DNA of 37,767 bases, taken from assembly GCA_022709405.1 (NCBI GenBank), contig JAKLIV010000016.1, forward strand, positions 1 through 37,767, in the 5' to 3' direction. Positions 1 through 35,503 of the stretch are shown piece after piece. The notes beneath the pieces were generated by a model. The model did not search any database. It was given only the letters and a program-made list of their open reading frames with translations, and had not been told where the DNA came from. A program made the translations under genes and the position numbers. Numbering within the stretch: the first letter of the stretch is position 1; every line of letters begins with the position of its first letter. Origin of the DNA: Spirochaetota bacterium (GTDB taxonomy: Bacteria; Spirochaetota; UBA4802; UBA5550).

Positions 1-864
1 GATCAGGGGCTTGTGGCGGTAACCGATCTCAAATCGGTGAAGTGGTCCATTGACTTCGATAAAAAAATTTCCGGTCCGCCCTATGAGGTTGACGGCTGCA
101 TATATATATCCTTCGCCGATGGGTCCCTCGCGCTGTACGATTACACCAGGGGATCCCTTGTATGGAACAAAAAACTCGATTCTCCTGTTCCCGGGAACAG
201 GGGAATGGTCCAGGGTTTGAAAGGCGTTTTTGCCCTTACCGAAAAGGGGACGCTCTACAGAATCGACCGGACCGGGAATGTCATCTGGAGGGTTTTTCAC
301 GGTACTCCGGCCAAAGTGCAGCCCGTTTTCCGCGGCAACACCGTGTTTATCGCACTGAAAAAAGGCTGGCTTCTCGGCATAAACGCAGATACCGGAGCGG
401 AAAAACGTAAAGTTTTTCTCGACGAGGAAATCAGCTCCATGAGCCTCAGCAACGATGCGGTATATATCTCGACGAGTTCGGGTAATGTCTATAACTACAA
501 TTACGGCAACGACGGCATTCAGTGGAGCACGTCATCCCGGGTCAAGGGGGCTTCGATCGTCAGGGTCGACGAAAAGGCGGTGTACGTCTTTTATCGTTCC
601 GGTCATATAATGAGGCTCAATCTTTCAGGGAGGCTGGTCTGGGAGAGGGATCTGGGCGGCGAATTATTCATCACCCCTGCCGAAGATGCGGCCCACCTGT
701 ATTTTTCGGGCAGCAACAACCTTTTCGTCGTATCGAAAGAAACCGGGGAGGTGCAGTGGTCCATAGTCGTGCCTTCGGTGCTTACCGGCACCGTCGCTCT
801 CTCAAAAGACAAGATGTTCATGGTATCTTCCTCCAAGGGGCTCATGATCCTGAATAAATTCTAA
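1..864 (+). CDS. PQQ-like beta-propeller repeat protein (5' end cut by window)
   Basis: The reading frame is open from base 1 (D-Q-G-L before the first GTG at 13) and that start continues a propeller blade, so the true start lies outside the window. About seven blades of roughly 40 residues recur, each with a G-x-L/V-hydrophobic strand followed by an acidic or polar turn and a Trp, for example GSLALYDYTRGSLVW, GTLYRIDRTGNVIW, GHIMRLNLSGRLVW and NNLFVVSKETGEVQW. This is the pattern of PQQ/BamB/quinoprotein-type propellers. No catalytic or cofactor residue can be assigned, so a scaffold or binding role is as likely as an enzymatic one. The signal peptide, if any, would be upstream. It ends 179 bp before a chemotaxis cluster and a hairpin terminator separates the two, so shared function is not implied. 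Confidence 0.8.
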   Translation, partial: DQGLVAVTDLKSVKWSIDFDKKISGPPYEVDGCIYISFADGSLALYDYTRGSLVWNKKLDSPVPGNRGMVQGLKGVFALTEKGTLYRIDRTGNVIWRVFHGTPAKVQPVFRGNTVFIALKKGWLLGINADTGAEKRKVFLDEEISSMSLSNDAVYISTSSGNVYNYNYGNDGIQWSTSSRVKGASIVRVDEKAVYVFYRSGHIMRLNLSGRLVWERDLGGELFITPAEDAAHLYFSGSNNLFVVSKETGEVQWSIVVPSVLTGTVALSKDKMFMVSSSKGLMILNKF

Positions 865-899
865 TAACGGCTACAATAAAAGTCGATACTGAAAATGAA

Positions 900-935
900 A
901 GCCATCCTGGATTAGGGGTGGCTTATTATTTCGTC
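900..935 (+). terminator. probable intrinsic terminator after the propeller gene
   Basis: An 8-bp stem (900-907 with 916-923, one G-T pair) closes an 8-base loop and is followed by a T-rich stretch, TATTATTTCG. The T-tract is interrupted, so efficiency is uncertain. It fits the gap between the propeller gene and cheW. Confidence 0.5.
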
Positions 936-952
936 TATGAATTAAAAAATGC

Positions 953-980
953 TTGAAAACTGCGGCTTTTCATTTATCCT
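953..980 (+). promoter_or_regulatory. possible sigma70-type promoter for the cheW-cheA-cheB unit
   Basis: TTGAAA at 953-958 is separated by 16 bp from TATCCT at 975-980, about 55 bp upstream of cheW. It is the best match in this gap but has a weak -10. Chemotaxis genes in other bacteria may use other sigma factors, so this is tentative. Confidence 0.35.
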
Positions 981-1043
981 TATTGTAAACGAGAAAAATG
1001 TCGTGAGATCAATTGCGTGTCACGGCTTTCGTACGGGTGAAAT

Positions 1044-1586
1044 ATGAACATCAATGAACTGCTGAGCAAACAGAGGGGCGATATCGGCAAGACGCTTGAA
1101 ACCGCAGCCGCAACCCCCGAAGAAGACGATTTTATCATTGAAGGGGATGTGCTCCAGATCGTCAGCTTTCTTCTCGACGACGTCGAGTACGGCGTCGACA
1201 TACTCGCCGTCCATGAAATCCTGAGATATCCGGACATCACGCGCCTTCCCAATACGCCTGAATTCATCAAGGGCGTCATCAACCTCAGGGGGAATGTCAT
1301 TCCCGTCGTGGACGTTCGCCTTCGTTTCGGTCTTTCTACGGCTGAAGTAACCGACCTTACCAGGATAATCGTCATCGAAAGCGAAGGGAAAGAAGTCGGC
1401 CTCCTTGTCGACAATGTATACCAGGTGGTGAGGCTCCCGGAAACCCATGTTGACCAGCCTTCAGAGCTGATCGAAGGCGTGTCGGAGGAATTCATAAAGG
1501 GTATCGGACGGCTCAAGGACCGTCTTATCGTCATCCTCAATCTCGGCAATATGCTGTTTTTAGAGAAGAAGGTTGAGGAGCAGTAA
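1044..1586 (+). CDS. cheW: CheW-family chemotaxis coupling protein
   Basis: A 180-residue protein with one CheW domain (about residues 34-175), preceded by a roughly 30-residue acidic leader. Typical CheW features are visible: the strand IVSFLLDDVEYGVDIL, the VHEILRYPDITRLP segment, the very conserved GVINLRGNVIPVVD turn, and a late GLLVDNVYQVVRLP segment. CheW couples methyl-accepting receptors to the kinase CheA at the inner membrane. It is the first gene of the cluster and cheA follows after 31 bp. A second, distinct cheW occurs at 21855-22355, so the two may serve different receptor sets. A GGGTGA element just upstream of the ATG is a weak ribosome site. Confidence 0.93.
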   Translation: MNINELLSKQRGDIGKTLETAAATPEEDDFIIEGDVLQIVSFLLDDVEYGVDILAVHEILRYPDITRLPNTPEFIKGVINLRGNVIPVVDVRLRFGLSTAEVTDLTRIIVIESEGKEVGLLVDNVYQVVRLPETHVDQPSELIEGVSEEFIKGIGRLKDRLIVILNLGNMLFLEKKVEEQ

Positions 1587-1617
1587 AGATCTTATCATAT
1601 TCAGGAGCGGGTAAAAT

Positions 1618-4600
1618 ATGGCATTCTCCCTGGGCGAATATCAAGATATATTTTTGGAAGAGGCTGATGAACAGCTCCAGGAGCTGAACCAGAACCTTCT
1701 TGAGCTGGAAAAGAATCCGGACAATATCGATATAATTAACAATATTTTCCGGGCAGCCCACTCACTGAAAAGTTCGGCCGCTTTCGTTGGACTCAACGAT
1801 TTAAGCGATCTCGCGCATAAGATGGAAAACCTGCTCCAGGGCATACGCGACAGAACCATGGCCGTGACTCCCGAGATCGTGGATGTCATTTTCAAGTGCT
1901 TCGACGAAATTAATTCGGTCATAGAAAGCGTCGCGGCCGGCGAAGAGCCGACCCAGGACCTCTCATGGATAATCGAAAGGATAAAGGCGGTCAGCGAAAA
2001 ATCCGGTTCCGGCGCTGCGCAGAAACAGCAGACCGAGGCCCCGGCCGAGGAGGACTCTTCGGCTGATATCCCGAAAACCGTGATCGGCCAGTCCGAAATT
2101 CAGGCCATTAAGCTGGGACTCGCCGAGGGAAAAAGCTGCAGCGAAATCACCGTTTTCATCGACAAGACCGCCCAGATGAAATGGGTGAAGGCCCAGCTGG
2201 TTCTTAGCAATCTTGCGCGCATCGGGACCATCGTATCCACGATACCCACCGCCCAGAACCTGACCGGCGACGAGATGAGCAATATATTCAAGGTGATAAT
2301 TCTTTCGCTTAAACCGGTTCAGGACATCAAAAACGCGTGCGATATCGACCTGATATACCGGATAGACATCAAGAACATCAGCTTCACGAAGAAGGACAAC
2401 AAATCGGTGCTGAAATTCAGCGGCGGTGAAACTTTTCTTGTAGGAGAGGAACTGAAGCCTGCAGAGGCCGCGCCGCCCAAGAAGGAGCAAAAGGCCGAGG
2501 CTCCCGCATTTTCCCCGTCTTATGCCGAACCGGACGAAGAATCCGACGATGACGACGAACGGGAACATGAGACCGCCCATGCGGGCAGGGCCGCAGAGCA
2601 TGATAAACGCAAAGTGCCTCCACTCAGGACGGTAAAGGTCAGCGTCGACAAACTTGACCAGCTTTTGAACAATGTCGGAGAGCTTGTCATAGCGAACTCG
2701 GGCTTTTACAAGCTCTACGAGGAGATACGCAAGCTCGGGGACGACAAATCCATAACGAACGAGTTCAAGAACCGGATGGAGCAGATGTCGAGGATCGCGA
2801 AGGACCTCCAGACCGGGATAATGAAAACCAGGATGGTGCCGATAGGCCAGGTATTTTCGCGCTTCAACCGGCTCGTGAGGGACCTCACTAAAGAGTTCGG
2901 GAAAAACATCGAGCTCCTCATCAAGGGCGAGGACACCGAGCTTGACAAGAAGGTCATCGACGCGATAGGCGAACCGCTTATGCACCTTATCCGCAATGCG
3001 GTCGACCATGGGATAGAGCCTCTCGAGGACCGTAAAAAGCTCGGTAAATCCGATATCGCCACGGTAAGCCTGAACGCATACCAGGGCGGCAACCAGATAT
3101 TCGTCGAAGTAAGCGACGACGGAAAGGGCCTCAACAGCGATATCATCAAGCGCAAGGCCATAGAAAAGGGTTTTATCACCCCGGAAATGCTCGCCAACAT
3201 GGACACGACGGACATTAACAACCTCATTTTTATCCCCGGTTTTTCTACGGCCACCAAAATTACCGATGTTTCGGGCCGCGGCGTGGGAATGAACGTGGTG
3301 AAAGAAATCGTGAACGAGCTGAACGGCAATGTGACGATTGAAACCGAGCCGGGCATGGGCACCCGCTTCGTGCTCGCGTTCCCGCTGACGCTGGCAATCA
3401 TCCCCGCGATCATGGTCAAGGTCAGAAACGAGATGTACGCGATACCGCTGTCCGATGTCATCGAGACGATCAAGATAGCCGAGTCCGACATAACGACGAT
3501 TGAAGGCCACGAGGTGATCAATCTGCGGGGCGAGATACTCTCGCTCCTGAGGCTCAACGAATTCGTAGGCGTGCCGAGCGCGCTGTTCAAGGAGCAGAAA
3601 ATGCCGGTTGTCGTCGTCGGTTTCGGCAACAGGAAAATCGGTCTCATCGTGGATTTTCTCGAAGGCAAGCAGGAGATCGTAATCAAGTCGCTCGAGCAGA
3701 ACTATATGACCGTCGACGGCCTCGCAGGAGCATCCATCCTCGGCGATGGAAGCATCTGCCTGATACTCGATATTTCTTCGATGATAAACAAGGTCATCAG
3801 CGACCAGGACAAACTGAAGCATTTCGACAAGGATTCCGTGTCGGTGCAGAAGGCTTCGGTCGAGACGATAACCCCGGAAGAGATGCAGACGGAACAACCG
3901 GCTAAACCCAAACCGTCATCCCTTGCTGAAAAACCCTCTGTCCCGGGATCGATTACGATTCTCACCGACGACACCGCAAAAACTCCGGCAGCCCCGGAAC
4001 CTCCGCCTTCAAAACCGCATCCCGCGTACGAGAAGGAGAAGGAGCGTGCGATTGAGTTCGAGGCGGGATCAATGACCGCAAGAAAGGAGGAATCGCTGTA
4101 TCAGAAAACCGCCCAGCCGGCGCCCGTAAAGCCGGCCACGCCAGAACCTTCGATCAAAGAGGAGAGCGCGGCAGGGGCGCCTCCGGCGTCATCTGCTCCA
4201 CCAAAGGATAAGGCCGCCCCGGCAGCGGAGAAACCGGCCGCAGCGCCCGTCGATGAATTCACTCCCGTCGAGGAGGAGTTCCCGGCCGGGACGAAAAGCG
4301 AGGACGAGATCAAACAGCAGGTCAGGGACACGTTAAGCGATTTTCGTCAGGAGCTGAAAGACAGAACCGACATCATCAAGACCGGATCTCCGGTAGACCA
4401 TATGCGCGAGGCCCTCGACCTGTCCAAGGAAGACATCAATGAGTTTCAGGTCATCGCGAACGTCGGCGCGACCAATTCGGCCGAATCCCTTTCAAAGATT
4501 CTGGGAAAGAGGATCGATCTTTCGATACCCGAGGTCACGGTCAAGCCCATCGAGGGCATACCCGATTTCCTTGGAGACATCAACAGCGTCTATATCGGGG

Positions 4601-5019
4601 TGATGCTTCCCATTCTCGGCGACGCCAGGGGCACTCTTCTGTTTATACTCAAAGAGGATGTGGGCTTCTCTCTGATAGACATGCTGTACGGAACCGGTAC
4701 GAGCCAGACCAGGGAAATGGACGAGGACGGTGAATCAGCGCTCAAGGAGATCACGAACATCATCGGCTCTTCGGTGATAAACGTTTTCGCCGAGAAATCC
4801 GGCCTGGTTATCAAGCCGAGCGTGCCGACCATCGTGCACGATTATATGCAGTCGGTCATAGATTCGATCCTCGTGATGCACAACATGACCAACGATTACG
4901 CGATCATCATGGACACCGCTTTCTATTTCGAGGATGACAACATAATCGGCAATCTGCTACTGCTTCCCGAGGCTGAATCGCTCAAAATTCTTGTTTCCCG
5001 TCTGAGGGCGCATGGCTGA
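1618..5019 (+). CDS. cheA: CheA histidine kinase with a C-terminal CheC-like phosphatase domain
   Basis: At 1133 residues this is far longer than the usual 650-750. Domains in order: HPt (1-105, phospho-acceptor His48 in AAHSLKSS), a P2-like CheY-binding domain (about 155-262), an acidic linker, the dimerisation helices (about 337-435), the GHKL ATPase (N-box HLIRNAVDHG around 456-465, DDGKG 500-504, GRGVGM 553-558, GMGTRF 579-584), and the CheW-like P5 domain (about 592-725). A Pro/Ala/Glu-rich linker (about 740-900) follows, and then about 200 residues resembling CheC (about 930-1130). CheC phosphatase sites follow [DS]xxxExxN: the second copy is intact (S1040, E1044, N1047), while the first is degenerate (N941, V945, N948). 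CheA phosphorylates CheY and CheB, and CheC removes phosphate from CheY, so kinase and phosphatase would sit in one chain. A GGAG lies 10 bp before the ATG. The stop overlaps cheB by 8 bp. Kinase identity is certain; CheC activity is inferred. Confidence 0.95.
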   Translation: MAFSLGEYQDIFLEEADEQLQELNQNLLELEKNPDNIDIINNIFRAAHSLKSSAAFVGLNDLSDLAHKMENLLQGIRDRTMAVTPEIVDVIFKCFDEINSVIESVAAGEEPTQDLSWIIERIKAVSEKSGSGAAQKQQTEAPAEEDSSADIPKTVIGQSEIQAIKLGLAEGKSCSEITVFIDKTAQMKWVKAQLVLSNLARIGTIVSTIPTAQNLTGDEMSNIFKVIILSLKPVQDIKNACDIDLIYRIDIKNISFTKKDNKSVLKFSGGETFLVGEELKPAEAAPPKKEQKAEAPAFSPSYAEPDEESDDDDEREHETAHAGRAAEHDKRKVPPLRTVKVSVDKLDQLLNNVGELVIANSGFYKLYEEIRKLGDDKSITNEFKNRMEQMSRIAKDLQTGIMKTRMVPIGQVFSRFNRLVRDLTKEFGKNIELLIKGEDTELDKKVIDAIGEPLMHLIRNAVDHGIEPLEDRKKLGKSDIATVSLNAYQGGNQIFVEVSDDGKGLNSDIIKRKAIEKGFITPEMLANMDTTDINNLIFIPGFSTATKITDVSGRGVGMNVVKEIVNELNGNVTIETEPGMGTRFVLAFPLTLAIIPAIMVKVRNEMYAIPLSDVIETIKIAESDITTIEGHEVINLRGEILSLLRLNEFVGVPSALFKEQKMPVVVVGFGNRKIGLIVDFLEGKQEIVIKSLEQNYMTVDGLAGASILGDGSICLILDISSMINKVISDQDKLKHFDKDSVSVQKASVETITPEEMQTEQPAKPKPSSLAEKPSVPGSITILTDDTAKTPAAPEPPPSKPHPAYEKEKERAIEFEAGSMTARKEESLYQKTAQPAPVKPATPEPSIKEESAAGAPPASSAPPKDKAAPAAEKPAAAPVDEFTPVEEEFPAGTKSEDEIKQQVRDTLSDFRQELKDRTDIIKTGSPVDHMREALDLSKEDINEFQVIANVGATNSAESLSKILGKRIDLSIPEVTVKPIEGIPDFLGDINSVYIGVMLPILGDARGTLLFILKEDVGFSLIDMLYGTGTSQTREMDEDGESALKEITNIIGSSVINVFAEKSGLVIKPSVPTIVHDYMQSVIDSILVMHNMTNDYAIIMDTAFYFEDDNIIGNLLLLPEAESLKILVSRLRAHG

Positions 5020-6085
5020 TAAAATCAAGGTACTGATCGTAGACGATTCGGCCCTTTTCAGGAAAGTGATCAGCGATATCCTCCAGACCGATCCGGCGAT
5101 CGAGATCGTCGGCACCGCAAACAACGGCAAATCCGCGGTCATCAAGGCGCAGCAGCTCAATCCCGATGTCATAACCATGGACATCGAAATGCCCATAATG
5201 GACGGTCTGGCCGCACTCAGGGAAATCATGACGGTCAAGCCCAGGCCGGTCATCATGATGAGCGTGCTGACACAGTACGGGGCCGAAGCCACGTTCAAGG
5301 CCCTGGACATGGGCGCCGTAGATTTTGTTCCGAAACCTTCATCCGTCCTGTCTCTTTCTGCGGAAGAGATCGGCGACCTGCTCATTTCGAAAGTGAAGAA
5401 CGTCGCCGGTTCGCACGTAAGGGTGGGCAAGGAAATCACGCAGGCCGGCGGCGCCGGAATCCAGCCTGCGAAGCAGGAAAAAACCGCCATAACGAAAAGG
5501 TATACCGCGGGGAGCATGAGCTCGAGAGTCGTTGGTATCGGCACCTCGACCGGGGGGCCTTCCGCGCTGCTCAGGGTTTTCCAGGATTTTCCTGAAAATT
5601 TTCCTGCCCCTGTCGTCGTGGTGCAGCATATGCCCGAGGGCTTTACCAGGGCTTTTTCTGAAAGGCTCAATCTGAATTCAACCCTTTCCGTAAAGGAGGC
5701 GGAGGACGGCGACAGGCTTCTGCCGGGACATGCCTTCATCGCGCCGGGCCATTCGCATATGACCGTCGAAGGAAGGGAAGGAAACAGGAAGATCAGGGTG
5801 TTCCAGAGCGAAAAAGTCTCGGGCCACCGGCCTTCGATCGACGTGCTGTTCAATTCCCTTGCCGAGAGTACGGGAAAAGAGTGCGTGAGCGTGATAATGA
5901 CCGGCATGGGCAAGGACGGCGCCGACGGAATGCTGAAAATCCGCCAGAAGGGGGGCTTTACCCTGGCCCAGGACGAAAAGACGTCGGTCGTTTTCGGCAT
6001 GAACAGGGTCGCCGTTAATATCGGCGCAGTACAGGAAATAGTGCCCCTTGAGGACATTACAAAAAAAATTGTTGAACATATTTAA
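5012..6085 (+). CDS. cheB: CheB receptor methylesterase/glutamine deamidase
   Basis: A 357-residue protein with the full CheB layout. The N-terminal receiver domain has Asp11/Asp12, phospho-acceptor Asp57, Ser84 and Lys108. A linker of about 45 residues follows, then the methylesterase domain with the catalytic triad Ser179 (GTSTGGP), His206 (VQHMPEG) and Asp302 (GKDGADG). It removes methyl groups from chemoreceptor glutamates and is activated by CheA-dependent phosphorylation, giving adaptation. The start lies inside the cheA stop region (8-bp overlap), so translation is probably coupled. No cheR or receptor gene is present in the window, so the methylating partner must be elsewhere. Confidence 0.96.
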   Translation: MADKIKVLIVDDSALFRKVISDILQTDPAIEIVGTANNGKSAVIKAQQLNPDVITMDIEMPIMDGLAALREIMTVKPRPVIMMSVLTQYGAEATFKALDMGAVDFVPKPSSVLSLSAEEIGDLLISKVKNVAGSHVRVGKEITQAGGAGIQPAKQEKTAITKRYTAGSMSSRVVGIGTSTGGPSALLRVFQDFPENFPAPVVVVQHMPEGFTRAFSERLNLNSTLSVKEAEDGDRLLPGHAFIAPGHSHMTVEGREGNRKIRVFQSEKVSGHRPSIDVLFNSLAESTGKECVSVIMTGMGKDGADGMLKIRQKGGFTLAQDEKTSVVFGMNRVAVNIGAVQEIVPLEDITKKIVEHI

Positions 6086-6270: not shown

Positions 6271-6630
6271 ATGGCGACCATTTTAATCGTTGATGACGCA
6301 AAATTCATGAGAACGCTGGTTAAAGACGCTCTTGTTCCCGCAGGGCATGAAATAGTCGGCGAAGCTGAAAATGGAAACGAGGCTGTTGAATTATATAAGA
6401 AGCTCAAGCCCGAACTTGTGACCATGGATATCACCATGAGGGAAAAGGACGGCATCGAGGCGGCAGAAGAGATTCTCACCATCGATCCTTCGGCGAAGAT
6501 AATAATGGTTACCGCTCTCGGCCAGGAGAATCTCCTGACCAAGGCCATAAAGCTGGGCGTCAAAGACTTTGTCGTGAAGCCCTTTCCTCCGGAGCGGCTG
6601 CAGAAAGCGGCCGAAAAGGCCCTCGGCTGA
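6271..6630 (+). CDS. cheY: CheY-type single-domain response regulator
   Basis: A 119-residue receiver domain with nothing attached. The acidic pocket is Asp8/Asp9, the phospho-acceptor Asp53 (TMDITM), the switch Thr81 (MVTALGQ) and Lys103 (VVKPF). This is the expected set for CheY, which diffuses from CheA to the flagellar motor. A good ribosome site, GGGAG, lies 8-9 bases before the ATG. It follows cheB after 185 bp, has its own promoter and is closed by a strong terminator. CheY is the likely substrate of the CheC-like domain of the neighbouring CheA. That link is inference. Confidence 0.93.
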   Translation: MATILIVDDAKFMRTLVKDALVPAGHEIVGEAENGNEAVELYKKLKPELVTMDITMREKDGIEAAEEILTIDPSAKIIMVTALGQENLLTKAIKLGVKDFVVKPFPPERLQKAAEKALG

Positions 6631-21854: not shown

Positions 21855-22355
21855 ATGAAAAATGAAAAAATCGTTCCGCAGACGCAGCTTGATGAGCAGT
21901 CCGCCGAAGAAACCGAACAGTTCGTGACCTTCATGATCGGTAACGAACGGTACGGAGTGGATATCCTCAAGGTGCGCGACATCATCGATATGGTCGAAAT
22001 CACCCAGGTGCCGCGCAGCCCGGCCTGCCTGAAAGGAGTCATCAATCTCAGGGGCAAGATCGTTCCCGTCGTCGATCTTCGCCTGAAGTTCCGCATGCCC
22101 GAGATTCCCTATACCGGCGTAACCGTGATCATCGTGGTGGAGGTGAGATCGAAATTGATCGGGATGATCGTCGATTCGGTCTCGGATGTCGTCGATGTGG
22201 CGGTTTCAACAATCGATCACGGCAGCTACTTCAGAACCGGCATACGCGACGAATTCGTGAGCGGTGTCGGCAAGCACGACGAAGGCCTGATCATCATACT
22301 TGATGTCGAAAAGATACTGCAACCGGAAGACCGGTGCTCCCAGGAAAAGAGCTGA
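21855..22355 (+). CDS. cheW: Second CheW-family coupling protein
   Basis: A 166-residue single CheW domain with a short Glu/Gln-rich leader. Visible features are QFVTFMIGNERYGVDILKVRDII, VEITQVPRSPACLKGVINLRG, KIVPVVDLRLKF, and a late LIGMIVDSVSDVVDV. It is clearly a paralogue of the product of 1044-1586 but not a recent duplicate, since the sequences differ along most of the length. It may couple different receptors to the same CheA. It lies downstream of murJ on the same strand and ends 16 bp from the convergent HAD gene. Confidence 0.93.
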   Translation: MKNEKIVPQTQLDEQSAEETEQFVTFMIGNERYGVDILKVRDIIDMVEITQVPRSPACLKGVINLRGKIVPVVDLRLKFRMPEIPYTGVTVIIVVEVRSKLIGMIVDSVSDVVDVAVSTIDHGSYFRTGIRDEFVSGVGKHDEGLIIILDVEKILQPEDRCSQEKS

Positions 22356-30696: not shown

Positions 30697-33600
30697 TTAT
30701 ACTGATTCTTTGTTCCAGCGTTTTTTCTCGAAATCCTGCGCCGGATTTTTCCCCTGGCGCCGCGGTCTGGACCCCTGCGGATACAGGGACCCCTCGAGAA
30801 ACGAGCTCACCGCGAAGTAGACCTGGTGCCCTCCAGGCGCGGTGAACCCGTACGCGTATCCGATGCGCCCGGTCACGTCGACATTGTATCCCAGGGTTAT
30901 TTTCAGATTCAATTCGGCCCCTGCGCTGTAGCCGATATCCTCAGCCCTGAGGGGGCCGTCAAAGGCGCTGCCGCAGTCGAAAAAGACGTTCATCCAGAGG
31001 TCCCTGAACATGACCGGCACCGTGCGGAACGCCGCGTCCTTCTGTACGAGCGGCAGCCGTATTTCAGCCGTTGCCGCCAGGAGGCGGTTTCCCCTGATTT
31101 CCCCGGCCGGAAACCCCCGTATGCCGAGCTCGTCGTCTCCGGCGGCCGGGGTGCCGACGTATCCGCTTTCGAACCTGCCCAGAGAGTAGGGCCGCTCGTC
31201 GCCGTTTTCCAGGCAAATCCCGCCCCTTAAGCGCAGCAGGATCACGCTGCTTCGGTAAAATCCGGGAAGGTATTCGCTGTAATCCGCCCTGATCTTGTAA
31301 AAGTCCTCGTCTGAGCCGAAATACCGGTGGTAAACGTCGGCCGTTACCGCAAGGTCCCGACCGTGCTCCCTGCTTATCGAGTAGGGATACACGTATGCGT
31401 TGTTGATCGTATAGCCGAACTGCATCCTTCCGAGGAGCCTTTCGTCGCTGATCGTGTCCCGTCCGGGTCGATAACGGTCCCTGAATTCCTTTTCCAGGTA
31501 ATAGCCGCACTGGAGATACTGCTGGACCCGGTAGGTGATGAAGGGATACACGTTTGTCAGGTATCCCCCGCGATGGAGTTTTCTCTCAAGGAAGTAATCA
31601 TGCCGTGACTCCCAGGGGAAATTGTCTTTCCACAGGAAAATCGCGTCGTCATAGTACCCGACGGTGATGTCGGGATACAGGCCCGAATAGGTATAGCTCG
31701 CCTGGATGCCGAGGCGCACCTGGATGAGATAGAGGTTCAGGGCGAGGTAATACGAGTGCCTGTTCAGGGTATCGTTTCCCTGGACCCACACCCCGGTGAT
31801 GAAATCGTACGCTCCGGGATAGAATTCCCGGGTTTCGAGCACCGGTATATAGAAGGCCGGAAGCACCGAGTTCCATGCGCAGTACGGCCGCGATCCGTCA
31901 ACCTCGCCGCCGTTGTCGCCCTGTTCTGCGGCTTCGAAAAAACTCATGTCAAGCACTTCGGGCTCGGCGGTTTCCACGTCGAAAGTGGTTTTAGGATAAT
32001 CGATCAGGCCGATCCTGAATCCGTTCGGCTGGTACGAGGCGACCGCGATTTTCGTCCCGTCGGGGGATATGTCCGGGCTGAAAAGCCCGCCGGTCACGCT
32101 GGTGATCCTGCTGATCCTGTGCGTGGCAAGATCGTATTCATGCAGATTGTAGATTCCGCTTCTGTCAGACGCGAACAGCAGTTTTTTCCCGTCAGGGAGC
32201 CATGCGGGAGAGGTGTCGGCGCCAGGGTCATCGGTGATCCTGATCATCGCTTGTGTTTTCAGGTCGATGATCGCAATATCGGCATGCCCGCCGCCGTCTT
32301 TCAGGGTAAAGGCCGCGCGTACGCCGTCCGGAGAGACCCGCACGCCCGAGATCTGTACCGGGGAGCGGCTTATTATTTCGCGCGGATTCCTGAAATCCGG
32401 GTCGGAGATGACCAGTGAATACCGGTCCCTGTCGAAGGTGATGTAGATGAGGCCGTGTTTGAAGGCTTCGATATGCCTTGCCCGGAGCCGTGAAGTCGCC
32501 TGCCGGTAATGCCTGCCGTAGATGAATCCCTCGGTGTAAAGGGAAAAATTCCTGTAGTATTCGTCGTCTGCGAGATACAGGTCGCCGCTGTCGGCGGCCG
32601 AGAGGCTGCTCGGCGCGTTGACCCTGCAAAGCCTCGCCGCCGATTTTTTCGCGAGGTCATGGGCGTAGAGGTGCCCGCCCTTTCTGTCGGAGGATGACAC
32701 GTAGTAGACGGTCTTGCCGTCCCTGCTGAAGCGTGGAAATCTGGACGACGATCCGGCATCCGAAATATGGTCTATGGCTGTAAGCCCCCTGCTTTCAATC
32801 GCCGATGCCTGTTCCCTGTACCGCGAAACGGTTTTTTCCCGCCAGTCATTCCACAGCATGAAGAACGGTTTGCCGTAAACGTCCATGGCGTCCTTGTTGA
32901 ACAGGCCGGGAATCGGGTATATGTTGTCCGAGAAGGGTACGAGATTGTCGGCGTTTTCGTGCATGTAGCGGGCGAATGAGCCCTGGCCGTAGGCGTCTTC
33001 GAGGTATTGGATGAAAAGCCCGCCGTACAGGTAGGGGACCTTTCCCCTGGGCCATTCCCGCGTGAAGTGCGACGCCTTGCCGATGCTCTTGAATGAGCCG
33101 GCAAGCGCATCTGTCCTCATGATCATGTCGGTGTACGCGCTGTTGTTTCTGCCGAAGGGCTTTTTGCGGGATTCGTGAAAAACGGCGTTTCCTTCGATGA
33201 TCCATACAGGCTGAAACAGGTTGGGGTAGAACAGCGGGTTTCTGCCCAGCACCCGCCGTCCCGCCTGCGGCAGGCCGTGCACCGTGTCGAGGTTGAGAAT
33301 ATGGGTGTACTCGTGGGTGAAAACGGATTCAAGCCAGTCGTCATAGTTGCCCAGGGTCGAGTCCGGTTCTGGCCGGGAAATGTAGATTTCGATCCGGTTG
33401 AACGGGTAGGGGGTCGCGGAGCCGTTGGCCAGGTCGGTGTTGTCGGTCAGTACTAGGTCGGTGCGCAGGGCAGTGGTCCAGCCGATTTTCGCCGAGAGCT
33501 CCAGGTGCGCCTTTTCGGCTATTACGGCCATGCGCCGGGCCGCATGTTCCAGTCCCTGATGGTAATGTATCCGGAAATGTTCTGTCTTGAGGGACCGCCA

Positions 33601-33702
33601 TTTAAGGCATGGATCATAGGTCCCCGCAGAATGAGCCTGCGGATGGATGAGCCAGATGAATGTGGCGAAGGCCAGGAAGCATTTTACTCTGTATGGACTC
33701 AT
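30697..33702 (-). CDS. Outer-membrane protein: gluzincin protease domain, PD40 propeller and Omp85-like barrel
   Basis: A 1001-residue protein. A signal peptide covers 1-26. Residues about 35-310 form a peptidase MA-like domain with a full gluzincin zinc site: HEYTH (130-134) and the third ligand Glu170 in WIIEGNAVFHE. Residues about 315-600 contain PD40/TolB-type blades (FPRFSRDGKTVYY, RVSPDGVRAAF, SPAWLPDGKKLLFASDRSG, DISPDGTKIAVAS). From about 630 onward alternating aromatic strands form a beta-barrel, with GIRGFPAGEIRGN and the later NVFFDCGSAF matching the Omp85/BamA RGF loop and final strands. No POTRA domains are seen. A basic 30-residue tail follows the barrel. It may be a surface or periplasmic protease tethered to the outer membrane. 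The ATG at 33702 starts the signal peptide; a TTG at 33741 is unlikely. Confidence 0.85.
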   Translation of the reverse strand: MSPYRVKCFLAFATFIWLIHPQAHSAGTYDPCLKWRSLKTEHFRIHYHQGLEHAARRMAVIAEKAHLELSAKIGWTTALRTDLVLTDNTDLANGSATPYPFNRIEIYISRPEPDSTLGNYDDWLESVFTHEYTHILNLDTVHGLPQAGRRVLGRNPLFYPNLFQPVWIIEGNAVFHESRKKPFGRNNSAYTDMIMRTDALAGSFKSIGKASHFTREWPRGKVPYLYGGLFIQYLEDAYGQGSFARYMHENADNLVPFSDNIYPIPGLFNKDAMDVYGKPFFMLWNDWREKTVSRYREQASAIESRGLTAIDHISDAGSSSRFPRFSRDGKTVYYVSSSDRKGGHLYAHDLAKKSAARLCRVNAPSSLSAADSGDLYLADDEYYRNFSLYTEGFIYGRHYRQATSRLRARHIEAFKHGLIYITFDRDRYSLVISDPDFRNPREIISRSPVQISGVRVSPDGVRAAFTLKDGGGHADIAIIDLKTQAMIRITDDPGADTSPAWLPDGKKLLFASDRSGIYNLHEYDLATHRISRITSVTGGLFSPDISPDGTKIAVASYQPNGFRIGLIDYPKTTFDVETAEPEVLDMSFFEAAEQGDNGGEVDGSRPYCAWNSVLPAFYIPVLETREFYPGAYDFITGVWVQGNDTLNRHSYYLALNLYLIQVRLGIQASYTYSGLYPDITVGYYDDAIFLWKDNFPWESRHDYFLERKLHRGGYLTNVYPFITYRVQQYLQCGYYLEKEFRDRYRPGRDTISDERLLGRMQFGYTINNAYVYPYSISREHGRDLAVTADVYHRYFGSDEDFYKIRADYSEYLPGFYRSSVILLRLRGGICLENGDERPYSLGRFESGYVGTPAAGDDELGIRGFPAGEIRGNRLLAATAEIRLPLVQKDAAFRTVPVMFRDLWMNVFFDCGSAFDGPLRAEDIGYSAGAELNLKITLGYNVDVTGRIGYAYGFTAPGGHQVYFAVSSFLEGSLYPQGSRPRRQGKNPAQDFEKKRWNKESV

Positions 33703-33825
33703 GGTAGATGTTTTCTCATGCTGTCTGCTCTCAGGCAACAATTTTTACTGGAGTGGAGCGGTATTATAATGAAAATGCAGGCGCAGGACGCTATGCAGGG
33801 GTCCTGTCTGCAGTTTTTTTTCAAG

Positions 33826-33861: not shown

Positions 33862-33978
33862 GTTATATAAATGATACTGTTAATCGCCATTTTTCAGGTT
33901 ATTTCAGTGAACCAGAACGAATGGGCTGAATAATAAGCGAAAAATGACTATTATGCAATGCTCGTCAGAGGAATATTC

Positions 33979-34425
33979 ATGAAAACGCCGGACTCATTTC
34001 CAAGCATCAATACCAAGAGACCCGACGGCCTGCGACCCAATGGCCGCCCTTACCGTTTAATGATCGTCGAGGACAAGGAGTTTCAGAGAAAGCAGATCGT
34101 CCAGATTCTTGAATCCGAGGGATATGAAATCGTCGCTACCGCATCGAACGGCCAGGAGGCCCTGAACAAGTTCGACAAGCTTGAAAATCCCCTGGATCTT
34201 CTGACGACCACCCTGGACATGCCGATTCTCGACGGCTATGCTCTCATGTACGAACTGAATCAGAAACCGAACAAGCCTGTAATCGTTTTCATAAGCGAAG
34301 AAACGACCAAGGGGGTCATGCAGGATCTCATTTCCATGGGCATAGGCGACTATATCCTTAAACCGATAAATAGAAGGGTGCTTCTGGAGCGCATCAAAGC
34401 GGTTGTGACAAAAAAGGTAAAATAG
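33979..34425 (+). CDS. Single-domain response regulator (CheY-like)
   Basis: A 148-residue protein: a basic, Pro-rich 25-residue leader and one receiver domain. Residues Glu31/Asp32, the phospho-acceptor Asp80 (TTTLDMPILDG), Ser106 and Lys128 (YILKPI) form a complete phosphorylation site. No output domain is attached, so it must act by protein contact. GAGGA lies 6 bases before the ATG at 33979, preferred to the ATG at 33958. The downstream gene starts 7 bp after the stop, suggesting that its product is the partner. No histidine kinase is in this operon; a hybrid kinase lies 2 kb away on the other strand. Confidence 0.88.
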   Translation: MKTPDSFPSINTKRPDGLRPNGRPYRLMIVEDKEFQRKQIVQILESEGYEIVATASNGQEALNKFDKLENPLDLLTTTLDMPILDGYALMYELNQKPNKPVIVFISEETTKGVMQDLISMGIGDYILKPINRRVLLERIKAVVTKKVK

Positions 34426-34432
34426 GGTAATT

Positions 34433-35503
34433 ATGGCTGAAAATCTCGAATCGGCGGTAAGTTCGCTTTCAGAACAGACGAAACGGCTCGATATCGCGGC
34501 ATATTACACCCATGGAGACATGGATAAGGCCAAAAAAATGATATCGGGCGGATACAAGGACATTTACGCGATAAAAATAACGTTTTCATCTTCAATATAC
34601 GGCGCTGCCCTGGTTTTTTATAATCCCACCTATGCCATAATGTATCCTCCCTATCTGATCGTGACGCCGTCTTTTTCGGTCGATGACATGAAAACGACCG
34701 TGAGCTGGCGCCAGTTCGAGCAGGAGATAACCGAGAATCTCAACAAGAAGGAACATGACGACGTGCTTGTCGCACATATGAAGGACGAGCTTGCCATGGG
34801 ACTCAACCTCGAGTTCGGGGTCGAGTTGAAGCGGCTCATCGAAATGAACGATGAAATTGCGATTAACCGCCATTTCATGAAAGTCGTCCAGAACCGCCTC
34901 GGTTTTCAGAAGCTGAACATAAGCGTCGATTTCGAGCCGACATCCTCCCTCGAGATGGAACTCGATTCGAAGAGCAGCAAGAAACTCGATCCCCGCGAGC
35001 TCGGTAAAAAGGATGAAAAACCAGCGGAAGGAGAATCGGGGGGAGAGGAGGAAGACGACGCCCTTGCCGGCAAGGAGATCAAGCTGATACTCCAGGGAAG
35101 CCTGATACTATCCCCGATAAAAGGGAAGGAGATCAGGGATCTTGCGGTCGGCGACAGGATCATGATCAGCATCATCGACCCGAATCCCAAGAGCAGGGAC
35201 CTCGCCAAGGCATTCAAGGCGTATGACGAGGAACAGCAGCGCATCAAGCCGATCCCGGGCAGGATCGTTTCATTCAGGCATCTCGCCAGCGGCGGCTACA
35301 AGATATTCGCGATCGTCGCAAAAGGGATTTACATCAGGATAAACGAGGAAGAGGACAACATCAAGGTGGCCCTTGACCAGGGCGCCAATCCAACGGGCGG
35401 CAAGGTCGAAAGCTCTCCTTCAGCCATGATGCCTCTCATTATCACACTGATGGTCATTCTGCTGCTGCTGATCGGCCTTATCGTGTATTTCGTCACGTCT
35501 TAG
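34433..35503 (+). CDS. Unrecognised tail-anchored membrane protein
   Basis: A 356-residue protein with no family I recognise. Residues 1-185 are a mixed alpha/beta region without a signal peptide. About 190-220 is a Lys/Glu/Asp linker. About 222-325 is a beta-rich domain ([49 protein letters not shown]). Residues 332-354 are a single hydrophobic helix followed by T-S, so it is a tail-anchored, cytosol-facing protein. It is cotranscribed with a stand-alone receiver and could be its output partner. That is inference from spacing. Its last 11 bp overlap the convergent hisF. Confidence 0.8.

Follow-up and report, generated by a model that had tools for sequence, protein, structure and literature searches.

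The CheC-type domain normally occurs as a separate enzyme, which switches the chemotaxis signal off. In Bacillus subtilis, residue D149 of CheC is required for the binding of CheD, and this binding counts more in chemotaxis than the phosphatase activity of CheC; the free protein shows 6% of the activity of FliY (PMC3513319). A survey of CheA proteins published in 2023 in Microbiol Spectr included fusions of CheC or CheX to F1 CheAs of Leptospirae, for which a dual kinase/phosphatase function was proposed (PMC10782961). It was based on RefSeq genomes (GTDB r95/MiST) and dealt with the fusions in a single paragraph that analysed neither active sites nor trees. A full-text literature search for 'CheA-CheC' returned this work only, as paper and preprint.

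The gene described here is located in a window of 37,767 nucleotides (the whole stretch of DNA that was analysed) from a Spirochaetota genome. A single unbroken open reading frame encodes a CheA-CheC fusion protein of 1133 amino acids, whose domains and neighbouring genes are listed in Table 1.

Table 1. Position of the cheA/C gene, its domains and key residues, and adjacent chemotaxis genes in the window.
Feature	Residues	Position	Strand	Basis
cheW, upstream of cheA/C		1044..1586	+	Pfam CheW 4.7e-37; synteny
cheA/C gene, CheA-CheC fusion		1618..5019	+	Single ORF; Pfam domains; orthologues across the order
P1 Hpt domain	8-98	1639..1911	+	Pfam Hpt 1.6e-19
P2 response-regulator-binding domain	176-252	2143..2373	+	Pfam P2 4.3e-12
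P3 dimerisation domain	337-404	2626..2829	+	Pfam H-kinase_dim 6.1e-18
P4 ATPase domain (N/G1/F/G2 boxes)	453-591	2974..3390	+	Pfam HATPase_c 2.8e-17
P5 CheW-like domain	598-725	3409..3792	+	Pfam CheW 5.1e-29
Disordered Pro/Ala-rich linker	735-893	3820..4296	+	pLDDT < 50, full-length model
Conserved helix, linker-CheC junction	895-921	4300..4380	+	Helical in both models (full-length; 893-1133)
CheC-type domain	~935-1132	4420..5013	+	PF04509, NF041093 alignment, PDB phmmer, Foldseek
Site 1, degenerate (Glu lost, Asn kept)	N941-x3-V945-x2-N948	4438..4461	+	
Site 2, intact	S1040-x3-E1044-x2-N1047	4735..4758	+	D/S-x3-E-x2-N
Match to CheD-docking Asp (B. subtilis CheC D149)	D1075	4840..4842	+	Alignment
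cheB, 8-nt overlap with cheA/C stop		5012..6085	+	Pfam Response_reg + CheB_methylest; synteny
cheY, presumed kinase/phosphatase substrate		6271..6630	+	Pfam Response_reg

Architecture of the fusion protein

The Hpt, H-kinase_dim, HATPase_c and CheW domains score above their Pfam cut-offs. Among 25 orthologues the candidate phospho-acceptor histidine of P1 (H48, in the motif AAHSLKS) is invariant, and the P4 motifs N460, DDGxGL, GFST and GRGVG are invariant or almost so, which identifies the N-terminal part as a CheA histidine kinase. The following linker contains 16% Pro and 16% Ala (residues 729-892), and its length ranges from 97 to 251 amino acids across the order. At its junction with the CheC-type domain there is a helix in which L906, F909 and L913 are invariant and V902 and E912 nearly so (25 orthologues); this element may serve docking or pairing. 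In the full-length AlphaFold model (25 sequences) P5 was modelled poorly, with pLDDT of 30-50, and therefore no inter-domain geometry was taken from it.

The Pfam CheC profile PF04509 scored 37.3 bits over residues 1039-1073, above its cut-off of 22, which places the domain in the CheC family. The CheX profile PF13690 gave 24.4 bits, under its cut-off of 27; this score and a fold match weaker than that to CheC rule out a CheX identity. The NCBIfam model CheC_Thtogales (NF041093) aligned over residues 935-1129 (E 1.8e-34), although the score of 119.5 bits is below the cut-off of 250 of this narrow equivalog model, so that the domain is not an orthologue of the Thermotogales CheC. The best sequence match in the PDB, obtained with phmmer, was CheC of Thermotoga maritima (1xkr, E 2.8e-19). 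An AlphaFold2 model of residues 893-1133, with a mean pLDDT of 86.5, placed T. maritima CheC on top in Foldseek (1xkr, E 7.9e-20 and TM-score 0.86 by target; 2f9z_A, E 2.8e-18 and TM-score 0.90 by target), followed by FliY, an archaeal CheC-like protein and CheX. The predicted structure thus has the CheC fold of two pseudo-symmetric repeats, with 1xkr and 2f9z as its best counterparts.

The initial annotation had described a standard P1-P5 CheA, a Pro/Ala linker and a C-terminal CheC-type domain. The kinase core is borne out by Pfam matches for all five domains and by its conserved motifs, and the linker by its composition and predicted disorder. As to the C-terminal domain, the profile comparison set in advance as its check gave CheC, in agreement with the sequence search and the predicted fold. 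Only its boundary has to be moved, since the start proposed at position 4340 falls within the helix 895-921 and the CheC fold itself begins at about residue 935.

Spread and origin of the fusion

Of 45 genomes belonging to this family or order, 43 carry the fusion gene; the two in which it was not found, G007 and G008, are 72% and 85% complete. All named matches are uncultured Spirochaetota assemblies, for example RBG_13_51_14 and UBA5550. The domain is 59-73% identical among many independent assemblies of the family or order, and the fusion is therefore not a product of chance or of assembly error. In a sample of the phylum, 100 of 393 Spirochaetota genomes matched the domain profile: about 89 carry the fusion, counted by open-frame length with a few genes truncated at a contig end or by a frameshift, while the other 11 have a free CheC-type protein only. 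The CheA core and the CheC domain were confirmed within one open reading frame in 68 non-redundant sequences. Among plasmids, searched with tblastn, no named relative with the fusion was found.

In a tree of the P3-P5 region, 67 of the 68 fused CheAs formed one clade against 26 unfused CheAs (SH-aLRT 98-99), and a tree with all 68 in one clade was not rejected (p-AU 0.66). In the tree of the CheC domains one branch separated fused from free domains (SH-aLRT 92). Both trees are to be read with several long branches, short searches and free CheCs drawn mainly from other phyla. The simplest reading of these sequence data, which is not a proof, would be one ancient fusion followed by vertical descent, and the single fused clade with its apparently vertical spread points to a function that was maintained for a long time. 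The fusion would then be, beyond Leptospirae, an old and maintained trait in a large part of the Spirochaetota.

Some individual sequences deviate from the common pattern. The CheC-fused CheA L137 (genome G144, 713-3382 (+)) lies on a long branch among unfused spirochaetal CheAs and may represent an independent second fusion. In L034/L069 (UBA5368) a CheA reading frame is followed by two overlapping CheC fragments, which may reflect sequencing error or decay of the domain. The fused CheAs L130 and L144 of family f41 have about 1350 amino acids, with a linker of several hundred residues before a CheC/CheX-like end.

Phosphatase sites

The two sites had been assigned beforehand as S1040/E1044/N1047, intact, and N941/V945/N948, degenerate. 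The residue numbers proved exact when mapped on the window, and alignment extended the asymmetry to the whole order: position 945 is V, L or I and position 948 is N in 39 of 39 members. The pair of Glu/Asn catalytic sites typical of CheC is accordingly absent, V945 taking the place of the site-1 glutamate. The stand-alone CheCs aligned here have Glu at both sites, and the site-1 Glu is present in all 15 that have a residue at that column.

Site 2 provides one complete D/S-x3-E-x2-N motif. None of the 70 fused domains differs at its residues E1044 and N1047, and in the well-covered columns of this alignment P1070 alone is equally conserved. This constraint concerns site 2 specifically, since the site-1 Glu has gone in the order. 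The invariance of E1044 and N1047 together with this loss indicates that selection retained exactly one phosphatase site.

Gene neighbourhood and other chemotaxis proteins

The cluster cheW-cheA/C-cheB-cheY-scpA-scpB is conserved in the order, and the part from cheW to scpA also in the groups f11 and f34. Among the proteins encoded there, CheY shows the strongest conservation (87-94% identity in the order, 76-82% in f11/f34). Elsewhere in the window there are a second cheW (21855-22355), distant from the cheA/C cluster, a gene for a DUF4899 protein (34433-35503) directly after a lone response regulator (33958-34425), and, on the minus strand, a gene for a protein of 1014 amino acids that contains PD40 beta-propeller repeats and ends in a weakly Omp85-like C-terminus (30697-33741).

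The genome also encodes CheR, three CheA-type dimerisation domains, two stand-alone CheX proteins with the ExxN motif (G000:C247 and C172), FliM, and a FliM/N-family protein of FliN/FliY size, probably FliY, which in relatives shows weak similarity to CheC. No match to CheZ was found in this genome or in 58 of 59 relatives, and the remaining relative gave a match below the cut-off, which rules out CheZ as the main phosphatase. The two CheX proteins and the probable FliY likewise rule out that the fused domain is the sole CheY-P phosphatase of the cell; because of them it need not be the main one either. With these proteins, three layers of CheY-P removal would be possible, presumably at the array, in the cytoplasm and at the motor.

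Proposed function and alternatives

On the basis of these comparisons the protein is probably a flagellar-type CheA with a C-terminally tethered CheC-family CheY-P phosphatase, placed at the receptor array. This reading is supported by the complete kinase core, the CheC fold, the constrained site 2, the long disordered linker and the conserved gene cluster, and from it we infer both the CheY-P phosphatase activity and the array localisation of the fused domain. The lack of CheZ in 58 of 59 relatives, the strong conservation of the neighbouring CheY, the single fused clade and the dual function proposed independently for Leptospirae (PMC10782961) also favour it; the other candidate phosphatases of the genome and the low activity of free B. 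subtilis CheC, with its more important CheD binding (PMC3513319), speak against it. CheY would dock on P2, be phosphorylated by P1 and be released as CheY-P. The tether would keep the CheC site near the array at high local concentration, where N1047 would be inserted and E1044 would touch the response-regulator lysine, so that CheY-P would be hydrolysed near its source. Each kinase dimer would in this way set both the production and the removal of CheY-P, and the consequence would be a shorter signal life and a constant kinase:phosphatase ratio.

The alternative that survives best is that the fused domain is chiefly a dock for CheD: bound CheY-P would raise its affinity for CheD, CheD would leave the receptors and kinase activity would fall, catalysis being secondary. 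The same scheme was proposed for free CheC of B. subtilis. In bacillar CheCs the docking Asp stands 31 residues past the site-2 Glu, and D1075, the equivalent of this Asp, has the same spacing from E1044; it is present in 38 of 38 members of the order and is retained in the f9, f27 and f28 fusions. Genes for CheD occur in 57 of 59 relatives, and at least two of the four CheD matches in the window's genome have the MF pair of CheC-binding CheDs (PMC3513319). Moreover, genome G047 has two cheA/C genes (L024, L025), with cheD and a cheX-type gene immediately downstream of each. The MF pair was rejected as a marker of CheC docking, since the CheD of G049 also has it although the fused domain of that lineage is without the Asp. 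In the f11 and f34 fusions the position equivalent to D1075 is mostly Gly, and yet the ExxN motif is present in 70 of 70 domains; CheD docking is therefore possible in the order but is not the common reason for the fusion. As the principal function of the domain it is, in our opinion, unlikely; a CheD-docking role in adaptation is nevertheless a live rival of, or complement to, the tethered phosphatase, because D1075 is conserved in this order and there is the precedent of B. subtilis CheC.

Since D1075 is kept in this order, the tethered phosphatase might here capture CheD as well, in a CheY-P-dependent manner, and so provide an adaptation feedback. It is conceivable, if rather doubtful, that one polypeptide combines the P1-P5 kinase, a CheY-P sensor and eraser (site 2) and a dock for CheD that is gated by CheY-P; in this order the excitation and termination of the signal and the feedback for adaptation would then be covalently joined at the array, the other fused clades having retained the eraser only. 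Among the fused CheAs evolution has set two functions of CheC apart, with the phosphatase site kept everywhere and the CheD dock in some clades only.

A second alternative, which we consider quite improbable, is a catalytically weak platform that binds CheY-P, or a phosphate buffer, holding CheY at the array. Site 1 without its Glu but with its Asn would suit such a role, P2 is an existing investment of the same protein in the capture of CheY, and the genome has other candidate phosphatases; mere binding, however, would not require that E1044 and N1047 be invariant across 70 diverged domains. Lastly, the assembly is a draft of 301 contigs and the CheC part of the relative L034/L069 is broken over frames, but an artefact of gene calling, assembly or frameshift, or a domain made separately from an internal start, can hardly be credited, as the same continuous frame occurs in dozens of independent assemblies from many families, which rules out the assembly and frameshift readings, and M929, the sole Met at the start of the domain, is Ile in several orthologues.

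The site at which CheY-P is destroyed (array, cytoplasm or motor) influences the reach and the speed of the chemotaxis signal, and spirochaetes are long cells. Here kinase and probable phosphatase are fused by nature, and the only active site of the latter does not vary; a point mutation there should abolish termination at the source and leave the kinase untouched.

Comparison with known systems

Precedents exist for the removal of CheY-P by or at the kinase, both with other phosphatase modules. CheA3 of Rhodobacter sphaeroides is reportedly a bifunctional kinase-phosphatase, as Porter et al. are said to have found in 2008, and in Escherichia coli the CheA-short/CheZ pair recruits a phosphatase to the kinase non-covalently. 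CheX and FliY belong, like the fused domain, to the CheC/CheX/FliY phosphatase superfamily with its ExxN sites; CheX differs in its sub-cut-off Pfam score on the fused domain and its poorer fold match, and FliY in its FliM/N C-terminal domain and its location at the motor, whereas the fused domain is located on the kinase. The stand-alone CheCs of T. maritima (1xkr/2f9z) and B. subtilis share with it the fold (TM-score 0.86-0.90 by target), the two repeats, site 2 and the CheD-docking Asp; they are, however, free proteins, and the stand-alone CheCs aligned here have Glu at both sites, while the present protein has a dead site 1 and its CheC domain is attached to the kinase covalently.

The closest counterparts, likened here by their described architecture, are the fusions of Leptospirae (PMC10782961), in which, again within the Spirochaetota, a full CheA ends in a CheC/CheX-family domain, and for which the same hypothesis was put forward; the present gene differs in coming from an order known from metagenomes only. 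The CheA-CheC architecture itself is thus already published for Leptospirae (PMC10782961). How widespread it is, a question left by the initial annotation, is answered in part by that survey and extended by the present one, and what is new here is the spread of the fusion, its single clade, the asymmetry of sites 1 and 2, and the pattern of the CheD dock among the fused clades.
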